Assembly: GCA_913062975.1 (NCBI GenBank)
Contig: CAJXZO010000010.1
Coordinates: 1 to 36,941 of the forward strand
DNA length: 36,941 nucleotides
Direction of reading: 5' to 3'
From: an uncultured Micrococcales bacterium
GTDB taxonomy: Bacteria > Actinomycetota > Actinomycetes > Actinomycetales > Microbacteriaceae
Part shown: piece after piece, positions 7,759 to 25,540 of the stretch
Numbering within the stretch: the stretch's first letter is position 1
Layout: every line of letters starts with the position of its first letter
The notes under the pieces: model-generated
What the model was told of the DNA's origin: nothing
What the model saw: the letters and a program-made list of their open reading frames with translations, nothing else
Databases searched by the model: none
Translations under genes and position numbers: made by a program

Positions 7759-8104
7759 ATTTTCCCCTTGGATTTCAGAAATCTAATCTTGGCACATTTA
7801 TCTAAAAGTTGGCTTTTGTTTCTACTCACCTGGTTTTACACAGATCTAGATTGATATCAAAGTAGAAAATTTAACTTAATAAAAACAATAACCTTTGTTG
7901 AATGTGTTGATAACTTATAAGAAGCCAGTTTTTTCCTAATAACTACATTTTTGTAATTTGTTGAACTAGCTGTTGATAAAACTGGGGATAAGTTTAGGGC
8001 CTGTGGACAAATATATACTTATCAACAATTTTGGGTATTTTTTAGGGGTCATCTACACAATCAACATGGGTTATGCACAAGTTATCCACAGGATATTTAT
8101 AAAA
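7759..8104. other. oriC: oriC: DnaA-box cluster and AT-rich region between dnaN and dnaA
   Basis: The gap contains no gene. DnaA-box matches (consensus TTATCCACA or its complement) are TGTTGATAA at 7905-7913 and 7971-7979, TGGGGATAA 7983-7991, TGTGGACAA 8002-8010, TTATCAACA 8019-8027, TTATGCACA 8071-8079 and the perfect TTATCCACA 8082-8090. A very AT-rich stretch at about 7861-7900, plus T-rich DNA at 7928-7960, is a candidate DNA-unwinding element. The location between dnaA and dnaN is the classical actinobacterial origin. A further four boxes lie upstream of dnaA (9516-9600). Confidence 0.92.
7833..7860 (-). promoter_or_regulatory. Candidate promoter for dnaN
   Basis: On the minus strand TTGATA (7860-7855), a 16-bp spacer and TAAAAC (7838-7833) form a plausible SigA promoter about 75 bp before dnaN. 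The -35 element lies in the palindrome TTGATATCAA. The spacing is slightly short and the -10 element is imperfect, so this is tentative. Confidence 0.35.
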
Positions 8105-9515: not shown

Positions 9516-9601
9516 TTATCCACAGTTTTCTGTCTAAAAAACTGATTTCTGTGTATAAGTATTACGTGATTGTGTATAACTTGGCTTACAGTTATCCCCA
9601 A
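9516..9601 (-). promoter_or_regulatory. dnaA upstream region: four DnaA boxes and candidate promoter
   Basis: Four boxes lie in the dnaA leader: TTATCCACA 9516-9524, TGTGTATAA 9550-9558 and 9571-9579, and TTATCCCCA 9592-9600. A candidate dnaA promoter on the minus strand is TTGGGG (9601-9596), a 17-bp spacer and TATACA (9578-9573), so boxes overlap both promoter elements. This fits DnaA autoregulation, a second half of a bipartite origin, or both. The box matches are direct observation; the promoter is tentative. Confidence 0.6.
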
Positions 9602-23127: not shown

Positions 23128-23382
23128 ATGGCAGGAAAAGGCGCAGCCAAGCGTAAAGCAAGACTTAATAGCATGGCCAAACCAGCACCAATGAAATTGG
23201 TAAAGGTCGGCACAATCGATTACAAGGACGTTGCAACACTCAGGAAGTTTATTTCTGACAGGGGCAAGATCCGTGCACGTCGAATCACAGGAGTATCCGT
23301 TCAGGACCAGCGCAAGATCGCAAAGGCAGTTAAGAATGCACGCGAGATGGCCCTGCTCCCCTACTCAGGCGCCGGGCGCTAA
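23128..23382 (+). CDS. rpsR: 30S ribosomal protein S18, cysteine-free form
   Basis: The 84-aa protein has the S18 core [30 protein letters not shown] and [19 protein letters not shown]. The N-terminal segment before IDYKD, where zinc-type S18 carries cysteines, has none; this is the C-minus form. The ATG follows AACAGGAGAAATAAG, a good ribosome site. The gene lies in the usual place between ssb and rplI. Confidence 0.96.
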
Positions 23383-23393
23383 GGAGAAAGCAC

Positions 23394-23843
23394 ATGTCAA
23401 AGATTATTCTGACCAATGAGGTCTCCGGATTGGGAAGTGCTGGTGACGTCGTTGAAGTTAAAAACGGTTATGCCCGCAACTACCTAATCCCCAACGGCTA
23501 TGCAGTCACTTGGAGCAAGGGCGGTGAGCGCCAGGTCGAGCAGATCAAGGCAGCTCGTGAGTCACGCCACCTAGCGGACGTTGAAGCGGCACAGCAGTTG
23601 AAGGCCAAGCTTGAAGAGAACCCAATCAAGATTTCAATGAAGTCTGGTAAAGAGGGACGTCTATTTGGTGCTGTGAAGCACGCAGATGTTGCAAACGCAA
23701 TCGTTGCATCAGGCATCGGTGAGGTTGACAAGCGAAAGATTGAATTCTCAGCTGCAATCAAAAACCTGGGTGACCACGAAGCAACAGTTCGAATTGGAGA
23801 ATTGACCGCAAACCTGAAACTTCAGGTAGTCGACGCCAAGTAA
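23394..23843 (+). CDS. rplI: 50S ribosomal protein L9
   Basis: The 149-aa protein has an N-terminal rRNA-binding domain ([34 protein letters not shown]), a long charged connecting helix at about residues 40-75, and a C-terminal domain ([18 protein letters not shown]). The ATG is preceded by AAGGAGAAAGCAC. It is the last gene of the operon before a terminator. Confidence 0.97.
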
Positions 23844-23858
23844 CTTCTAGAACTAACC

Positions 23859-23890
23859 AACAGAGACAAGGATTCGTCCTTGTCTTTGTT
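23859..23890 (+). terminator. Terminator of the rpsF-ssb-rpsR-rplI operon
   Basis: A 14-bp stem (AACAGAGACAAGGA pairing with TCCTTGTCTTTGTT, with one G-U pair) encloses the tetraloop TTCG. It lies 15 bp after the rplI stop. The 3' arm is T-rich but no long U run follows. The inner stem of nine pairs is perfect. It is the strongest hairpin in the window that I recognise. Confidence 0.8.
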
Positions 23891-23925
23891 CGCTTAAGCA
23901 CATTATGGGTGGCTTAACCGAACAC

Positions 23926-24090
23926 TTATCCACAACTGTTAACCTTATGTTTAAGCTTTTGAATAAAGTTTCTTACATAGGGTTTTGCCCAGTATTTTAC
24001 TGGAAAAAAAGTTTTTATCCACAGGTTATCCACAGTTTATGAACAGAGATAGTAACAGTTATAAGGCGTGTTTCCACAGAGTTATCCACA
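23926..24090 (+). promoter_or_regulatory. Cluster of four perfect DnaA boxes upstream of dnaB
   Basis: TTATCCACA occurs exactly at 23926-23934, 24015-24023, 24026-24034 and 24082-24090, all in the same orientation. A weaker match, GTTTCCACA, lies at 24070-24078. This fills the 356-bp non-coding region between rplI (ends 23843) and the chosen dnaB start (24200). The surrounding DNA is AT-rich, with GCTTAA repeated at 23892-23897, 23913-23918 and, inverted, at 23951-23956. I see no confident -35/-10 promoter pair here. Confidence 0.85.
23989..24003. repeat. Inverted repeat CCAGTA-TTT-TACTGG between DnaA boxes
   Basis: A perfect 6-bp inverted repeat with a 3-bp centre, CCAGTATTTTACTGG, lies in the dnaB upstream region. 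It could be an operator or a small hairpin. No transcription factor is recognised. Confidence 0.45.
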
Positions 24091-24199
24091 GGCGACACGG
24101 ATTCGTTTTGCAAGATAAATGTCTCTACTGAAAGATATAAAGGAGTCCATCGAAGCAGATGGAAGATTGCGACGAAAAACTAACAGCGGAGGTCTATCT

Positions 24200-25540
24200 A
24201 TGAGCATGGTGGCACCGGCCGAATCGGGAGCTAGATCACTTCCCAATGATCTAAACGCAGAGATGGCGACACTTGGTGGCATGCTCATCAGCCAAGAGGC
24301 AGTAGCAGAGGTTTTTGAAGAGGTTCGCTCTCACGATTTCTACGCGCCGAAACACGAGTTCATTTTCAATGCGATCCTGACTCTTTTTGGAAAGGGCGAG
24401 CCTACAGACGTTATTGCAGTCACCGACGAGTTAGGCAAGACCGGCAATCTAATCAAAGCAGGAGGTGCAGATTACCTGCACACACTTGCCAGTTACGTTC
24501 CAACAGCTGCAAGCTCCAGCTACTATGCATCAATCGTCAGTGAAAAAGCCGTTCTGCGAAGGCTGATTGAGGCTGGCACCCGTATTGTTCAAAGTGGTTA
24601 TGACAGCCAGGGTGAGGTCAGCGAACTGGTTAACGATGCTCAGTCTGAGATTTTCAAGGTGGCATCAGATACCAATGGTGATGATTTTGTCGGCCTGAAC
24701 AACAGTATTGAGGATGCAATCCACGAGATGGAGCTCGCCCAAAACCGAGGGGGAGAGCTAACCGGAATTGCAACAGGCTTCACAGAGCTTGACCAAATGA
24801 CCCATGGGTTACATGAGGGGCAGTTAGTTATTCTGGCAGCTAGGCCAGCCATGGGTAAATCAACCCTTGCTTTGGACATCGCAAGGCATGCGGCAGTGGT
24901 GAAGAAACAAAGCACAATATTTTTCTCGCTTGAAATGGGCAGGGCAGAGATCGCCATGAGGCTTTTGAGTGCGGAGTCGTCAACCAGCCTGCAGTCAATG
25001 CGTAAGGGAATGTTGGCGGAGAAAGACTGGTCAAAAATTGCCGCCACTCGAGGCAAGATCAACGACGCACCTTTGTATATTGATGACAGCCCAAACATGA
25101 CCCTCGTTGAGATCAGGGCTAAGTGCAGAAGGCTTGCACAGCAAACAGATTTGAAGATGGTGGTAATTGACTACCTGCAGCTTTTGACCTCTGGCAAAAA
25201 GGTTGAATCAAGGCAGCAAGAGGTTTCTGAGTTCTCGAGGGCATTAAAGCTTTTGGCAAAGGAACTGGATGTCCCCGTTATTGCAATCTCACAGCTGAAC
25301 CGTCAAACCGAGCAGAGTAAAGACAAAAAGCCAGAGCTTTCGCACCTTCGAGAGAGTGGTTCCCTGGAGCAAGACGCGGATGTTGTGGTGCTTTTGCACC
25401 GAGAGGGAGTCTTTGAAAAAGACCACCCTCGTTCTGGTGAAGCAGATTTGATTCTTGCGAAGCAGAGAAATGGACCCACTGGAACTGTGGTTGTTGCTTT
25501 CCAGGGTCACTATTCACGTTTCATGAATATGCAAAGATAG
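24200..25540 (+). CDS. dnaB: Replicative DNA helicase DnaB
   Basis: The 446-aa hexameric 5'-3' helicase has an N-terminal DnaB domain (LPNDLNAEMATLGGMLISQEA) and a RecA-like C-terminal domain with Walker A ARPAMGKSTLALD, Walker B KMVVIDYLQLL, SQLNRQTEQSKDKKPELSHL and the arginine-finger region. There is no intein, unlike several actinobacterial DnaBs. The frame is open to an ATG at 24119, but that codon lacks a ribosome site. ATG 24200 has GGAGGT (24188-24193) 6 bp upstream, so I choose it. The chromosome should use DciA (5056-5532) for helicase loading. Confidence 0.95.
   Translation: MSMVAPAESGARSLPNDLNAEMATLGGMLISQEAVAEVFEEVRSHDFYAPKHEFIFNAILTLFGKGEPTDVIAVTDELGKTGNLIKAGGADYLHTLASYVPTAASSSYYASIVSEKAVLRRLIEAGTRIVQSGYDSQGEVSELVNDAQSEIFKVASDTNGDDFVGLNNSIEDAIHEMELAQNRGGELTGIATGFTELDQMTHGLHEGQLVILAARPAMGKSTLALDIARHAAVVKKQSTIFFSLEMGRAEIAMRLLSAESSTSLQSMRKGMLAEKDWSKIAATRGKINDAPLYIDDSPNMTLVEIRAKCRRLAQQTDLKMVVIDYLQLLTSGKKVESRQQEVSEFSRALKLLAKELDVPVIAISQLNRQTEQSKDKKPELSHLRESGSLEQDADVVVLLHREGVFEKDHPRSGEADLILAKQRNGPTGTVVVAFQGHYSRFMNMQR

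Follow-up and report, generated by a model that had tools for sequence, protein, structure and literature searches.

Replication initiation requires both an initiator and a helicase, and to our knowledge little is known about how the supplies of the two are matched in bacteria. The window analyzed here, a stretch of 36,941 nucleotides from an uncultured Micrococcales bacterium, raises this question because four exact DnaA boxes stand in one orientation in front of dnaB, the gene for the replicative DNA helicase. What is such an array doing there? We consider it quite probable that DnaA binds this stretch and controls the dnaB promoter from upstream, most likely as an activator. The site would probably tie helicase supply to the replication initiator. 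The source assembly has 1,136,117 bases in 32 contigs and is 79% complete.

DnaA Boxes in the Spacer between rplI and dnaB

The spacer occupies positions 23844–24199. Its 5' neighbour is rplI (ribosomal protein L9; 23394–23843, + strand), an open reading frame that matches TIGR00158 above the cut-off, and it is followed by dnaB (24200–25540, + strand), which matches TIGR00665 above the cut-off. The start of dnaB is probably the ATG at 24200, rather than that of a longer open reading frame from 24119, because a Shine-Dalgarno sequence, GGAGG, is found at 24188–24192. No viral relative of dnaB was confirmed in viral_contigs for the query used.

The array covers 165 bp (23926–24090). It comprises four exact copies of TTATCCACA, all on the + strand and 110–274 nt 5' of the dnaB start. 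Box 1 (23926–23934) is outlying and is retained in the genus-mate, boxes 2 and 3 (24015–24023 and 24026–24034) form an exact double box with a 2-bp gap, and box 4 (24082–24090) is promoter-proximal. Two degenerate boxes run in the same direction. One of them, TTATGAACA at 24037–24045, is the third step of an 11-bp series and reads TTTTCCACA in the genus-mate; the other, GTTTCCACA at 24070–24078, lies 3 bp ahead of box 4. The original prediction had described four exact co-directional boxes in this spacer, two of them only 2 bp apart, in AT-rich DNA with GCTTAA repeats and an inverted repeat, and all of this was found. It had also claimed more exact boxes here than in the oriC spacer, which is correct, since the dnaA–dnaN spacer (7759–8104) has one exact box (8082–8090) and six one-mismatch boxes of mixed orientation.

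The best inverted repeat (23859–23890, with 14-nt arms that are 93% complementary) lies upstream of all the boxes and stops short of box 1. It is probably the terminator of rplI on the + strand; a consensus terminator scan called it terminator-like on the − strand only.

We counted six exact TTATCCACA sites in the window against 0.27 expected, and none of 100 shuffles reached six. The whole assembly contains 18 exact sites, four of them in the 165-bp stretch, compared with 11 for the reversed control motif; 18 sites per 1.14 Mb correspond by arithmetic to about 0.003 exact boxes per 165 bp. Thus, the array of four boxes is real and greatly exceeds the chance expectation. In the 79% complete assembly, TTATCCACA-N2-TTATCCACA at 24015–24034 is the sole exact double box. 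Double boxes of the E. coli type (same direction, 2- or 3-bp gap) are represented in the dnaB spacer by this exact copy and three weaker ones, among them the pairs that start at 24026 and 24070, each with two mismatches, via TTATGAACA and GTTTCCACA.

Conservation in Close Relatives

For the close relatives, the best 30 loci from a search of 40 genomes were used, the window's own locus included, with 500 nt upstream of each dnaB. In the genus-mate, whose DnaB is 92% identical, the boxes are found at the same positions. Boxes lie within 500 nt of dnaB in 27 of the 30 loci, and an exact box is present in 21. These loci hold 124 boxes against five occurrences of the reversed motif, and the orientation along the direction of dnaB prevails by 103 to 21. 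The boxes occur in GC-rich relatives too. Conservation among close relatives had been proposed as a check on the original prediction; indeed, the genus-mate and the majority of the family members have the boxes.

An alignment of the window with the genus-mate and a third genome (G015) showed invariant columns to be most frequent in the boxes (80%, 43/54, where two of the six boxes were chosen after the relatives were known), followed by the promoter block (56%, 15/27) and the remainder (31%, 85/276).

Distribution in the Class and Outside

We searched 148 genomes of the class and obtained loci from 139 of them. As G166 gave two, the sample has 140 loci from 33 families, each with 1 kb upstream. 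The genomes left out were G000 and G069, together with G043, G108 and G170 (these three with weak or unlisted matches) and G104, G130, G057 and G150 (partial match or close to a contig end). The pooled set of 170 loci counts G029 twice and also contains the locus of the window. Outside the class, 40 of 73 genomes, hand-picked to spread families, were examined with 700 nt upstream.

At least three boxes precede dnaB in 103 of the 140 class loci, whereas the reversed control motif reaches this number in one of 140. Within 1 kb, the class loci have 497 boxes against 61 control sites (exact matches, 145 against 9), and the boxes are oriented 382:115 along the direction of dnaB. No box was found at four of the 140 loci, and in ten of the 33 families no locus has at least three. 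In the pooled loci, the boxes cluster 100–600 nt upstream of the dnaB reference point and fall to about the control level farther out. Outside the class, at least three boxes were found in 3 of 40 genomes, with 26 boxes in total against six for the control. On these counts, the array before dnaB seems to be characteristic of the class and uncommon elsewhere. The rplI gene was detected within 1.5 kb of dnaB in 49 of the 140 class loci, so this neighbourhood is established for those loci only.

Helical Phasing of the Array

In the window, the start-to-start steps of the array are 89, 11, 11, 33 and 12 bp, which are near whole helical turns. The box centres lie at about −62, −74, −107, −118, −129 and −218 relative to a predicted +1, which was placed seven bases past TATAAA at 24136–24141, itself a putative −10.

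The same spacing recurs in the pooled loci, where same-direction pairs are frequent at 11 bp (n = 27) and 12 bp (n = 45), and again at 21–24, 32–33, 43–45, 53–57 and 64–67 bp, with few pairs in between. Over all loci of the class, a period of 10.9 bp fitted best (352 pairs). With a single random locus from each of the 33 families (200 draws), the phase score averaged 0.72 and never fell below 0.63; when the positions were jittered by as much as 6 bp, it averaged 0.16 and reached 0.35 at most.

Double boxes with a gap of 2–3 bp and at most three mismatches were present near dnaB in 110 of the 140 class loci, compared with 0/140 farther upstream. The controls gave 2/140 for the reversed motif and 3/140 for gaps of 6–7 bp. 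At the same threshold, double boxes were found in 5 of 40 genomes outside the class and in 3 of 12 loci of family f38. A genome-wide count with at most one mismatch yielded 53 double boxes in 30 genomes (about 89 Mb). By coordinate reading, 16 genomes have 17 of these 53 in the 500 bp upstream of dnaB (6/16 in one part of the count and 11/37 in the other); the control patterns gave 0 and 2. Three more are in the dnaA–dnaN region of G000, G012 and G015. Twenty genomes contain 12 exact TTATCCACA pairs with a spacing of at most 30 bp; five of these are at dnaB, two just past dnaA and five elsewhere.

The Candidate Promoter and a PafBC-Type Element

The RecA-NDp/PafBC consensus is given as tTGTCRgtg-8 nt-TannnT (PMC5656591). 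Alignment with relatives places a probable dnaB promoter element of the window, a degenerate counterpart of this type, at 24119–24143 (+ strand), with TATAAA (24136–24141, + strand) as its likely −10. The window copy, ATGTCTCTACTGAAAGATATAAA, has four mismatches, so the consensus is not reached. It has the top + strand profile score in the spacer, yet 41 of 73,834 window positions score higher. A sigma-70 scan of 23300–24400 returned no + strand promoter.

In the pooled set, an element with at most one mismatch was found in 34 of 170 loci, against 0/170 on the other strand and 0/170 in shuffles (one mononucleotide shuffle per locus). With at most two mismatches the numbers were 78, 4 and 9, and the element has at least three mismatches in 92 loci. 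Many class members, L005 and L006 included, have a good element between the boxes and dnaB. Around such elements, 122 boxes lie upstream and one downstream, in 450 nt scanned, the downstream part being shorter. In other classes, 2 of 40 genomes had an element with at most one mismatch.

WYL proteins gave no match in the window's assembly, which is 79% complete; the genus-mate has two WYL matches about 0.9 kb apart. Because the element is good in many relatives and degenerate here, and in view of these WYL findings, control of dnaB by DNA damage is likely in many relatives and doubtful in the window's lineage. Induction of dnaB by mitomycin C in M. tuberculosis is described as partly PafBC-dependent, with a putative SOS box also indicated (PMC8151990). 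The available main text of four PafBC papers (PMC11804915, PMC6789036, PMC5656591 and PMC8223512) does not mention dnaB.

We tentatively propose, while holding it somewhat less likely to be right than wrong, that dnaB has a two-input promoter in much of the class. The phased ladder of DnaA boxes would report free initiator, and the downstream PafBC-type element would report single-stranded DNA at damaged forks; in the window's lineage, the damage input would be decaying and the DnaA input retained. If this were true, helicase supply would rise for either initiation or fork restart. In the titles and abstracts of the papers that literature searches brought up, the DnaA and PafBC inputs are nowhere described together at dnaB, which is weak evidence of absence.

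Probable Control of dnaB by DnaA and Alternative Explanations

The boxes are conserved, co-directional and helically phased, and they stand before the likely promoter. DnaA would bind them in this organism, transcription would start near the predicted +1, and control would probably be by activation rather than repression. DnaA would occupy the co-directional boxes as a cooperative array, with the double box (24015–24034) plus its degenerate third step and the proximal pair (24070–24090) as units and box 1 as an outlying member. All boxes would face about the same side of the helix, and the bound DnaA would act on RNA polymerase at the promoter around 24119–24143, which lacks a good −35. With DnaA as an activator, the most likely case, dnaB transcription would track the available DnaA. 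The original prediction had suggested such a coupling of helicase expression to DnaA, and this is well supported by conservation in the class, the position before the promoter and mycobacterial DnaA binding at the homologous place.

The activating reading is the simplest because the boxes lie upstream of the promoter and on one helix face, and because, in M. tuberculosis, dnaB is expressed less when DnaA binds more weakly. The direction of control, most likely activation, is taken by analogy from one DnaA mutant in another species. DnaA could instead repress dnaB from these boxes and so limit the helicase when DnaA is in excess. The evidence for binding would be identical, and autorepression by DnaA at its own promoter is established in other bacteria, as cited in PMC7738170. 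We nevertheless regard repression as unlikely, since the boxes around good promoter elements are almost all upstream (122 against 1, the downstream part of the 450 nt being shorter) and the weaker-binding DnaA mutant has lower, not higher, dnaB expression (PMC7738170). A cluster that mainly titrates or resets DnaA and so times initiation, its place at dnaB being secondary, might be suspected from the sole exact double box of the assembly and from the distance to dnaA, which at 16 kb means that the cluster is copied early. But the dnaA–dnaB distance varies from 16 to 58 kb over eight genomes with boxes, which speaks against a locus set by how far it lies from oriC; the boxes remain no more than about 600 nt from the start of dnaB, and they preserve an orientation and a helical phase that plain titration would not require. 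This explanation is very unlikely, and the reactivating, DARS-like locus that had been suggested received no positive support, as the cluster tracks dnaB. Any strong cluster would incidentally titrate some DnaA, and this one may do so as well.

The suggestion of a secondary unwinding site also gained no positive support, and we give a second origin only a slight chance. The least stable 60-bp stretch of the dnaB spacer (from 24004) ranks in the window's top 0.3% for instability, GC skew becomes positive near 21 kb, and TAGTAA at 24050–24055, which adjoins the array and is kept in the genus-mate, resembles DnaA-trio bases (consensus in PMC6669920). The lowest stability in the window, however, is that of the dnaA–dnaN spacer, and the trio-like bases are absent in L005 and L006 and so are not retained beyond the genus, which makes a second origin unlikely. 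The genes also switch strand near 21 kb, to which the turn of the skew is attributed, so the skew decides nothing about an origin. Finally, both the spacer and the box are AT-rich, and this might be thought to create boxes by chance or base composition. That explanation is hardly credible, and it was rejected on the shuffles, the reversed-motif controls, the conservation and the boxes of GC-rich relatives.

Comparison with Known Systems

An element of this kind is already known from mycobacteria. In M. tuberculosis, the region upstream of dnaB was among the five top regions bound by DnaA in vitro, and the homologous regions of M. smegmatis were DnaA-bound by ChIP-seq (PMC7738170). The same source describes the DnaA variant I282T of M. 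tuberculosis, which binds more weakly upstream of dnaB and uniquely under-expresses dnaB. The M. tuberculosis site (Rv0057 region) and its M. smegmatis homologue are, like ours, DnaA-box regions before dnaB in an actinobacterium. DnaA binding was measured there and is predicted for the window; the window has four exact TTATCCACA boxes in one direction, directly between rplI and dnaB, and a conserved ladder is not described for the mycobacterial site in the available part of PMC7738170. To this the present analysis adds conservation across the class, a ladder in helical phase and the association with a damage-type promoter. In mycobacterial PafBC/RecA-NDp promoters (PMC5656591), the element corresponds to the TTGTCRGTG-N8-TA that many relatives have between the boxes and dnaB, while the window copy has four mismatches and its 79% complete assembly no WYL match.

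Pairs of boxes 2 or 3 bp apart are preferred by E. coli DnaA according to PMC11317965. These double boxes share the direction and the gap with those of the window; they are shown there at other genes, whereas the double box of the window belongs to a longer array before dnaB.

The datA and DARS loci of E. coli are non-coding clusters of DnaA boxes outside oriC, and they are defined by a change in the nucleotide state of DnaA and by IHF/Fis-type sites. The window array is likewise a non-coding cluster outside oriC. Unlike datA and DARS, it is linked to dnaB and not to a set distance from oriC, and its boxes are all co-directional. In Caulobacter crescentus, DnaA reportedly binds upstream of dnaB (work of Hottes in 2005); this is a distant lineage, and the likeness, by description only, is that of DnaA upstream of dnaB. 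In B. subtilis the replicative helicase gene is dnaC. Caulobacter is named in PMC7738170 as a precedent for DnaA at dnaB. The whole-genome DnaA-binding paper on B. subtilis (PMC4447404) has no occurrence of dnaC or rplI, the available part of a Streptomyces paper (PMC5448010) makes no mention of a box cluster at dnaB, and the dnaB promoter in PMC6478999 serves only as an expression tool.

The presence of the ladder before dnaB in most of the class, and its rarity in the sampled sister classes, suggests a feed-forward link, one that is open to experiment in common laboratory actinobacteria. Such a link would extend the finding of DnaA binding in mycobacteria to a general rule, with an architecture that is defined.

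Variation of the Array and Other DnaA Boxes

The geometry of the array is not uniform, because the proximal box is inverted in several families. In family f32 (L034–L044, L047, L095) and in f31 members among L089–L162, an exact or near-exact proximal box runs in the opposite direction and sits 14–15 bp past a forward box. Family f37, with small genomes (L052, L056, L058, L063, L064, L078–L080), has the variant boxes TTATGCACA, TTATCCACC, TTACCCACA and TTATCCCCA, which retain a 12-bp series; DnaA recognition may be different in this family.

The close relatives' loci without boxes are 3 of 30 (L027, L029 and L032). The genome of L032 (G017, 0.9 Mb) has no DnaA boxes before dnaB and no WYL protein, and its dnaB and dnaA are 77 kb apart; a joint loss of the boxes and the WYL proteins is possible. 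The dnaB spacers of L007, L015, L019, L072, L097, L154 and L165, from several families, share the palindrome TTGTGCACAA, which reads as a one-mismatch box on either strand.

Elsewhere in the window, the boxes of the dnaA–dnaN spacer (7905–8090) include pairs with 2- and 3-bp gaps, as oriC would predict. At the upstream end of dnaA (9516–9600), an exact DnaA box is accompanied by three with one mismatch, and this is probably the dnaA promoter and autoregulation site.
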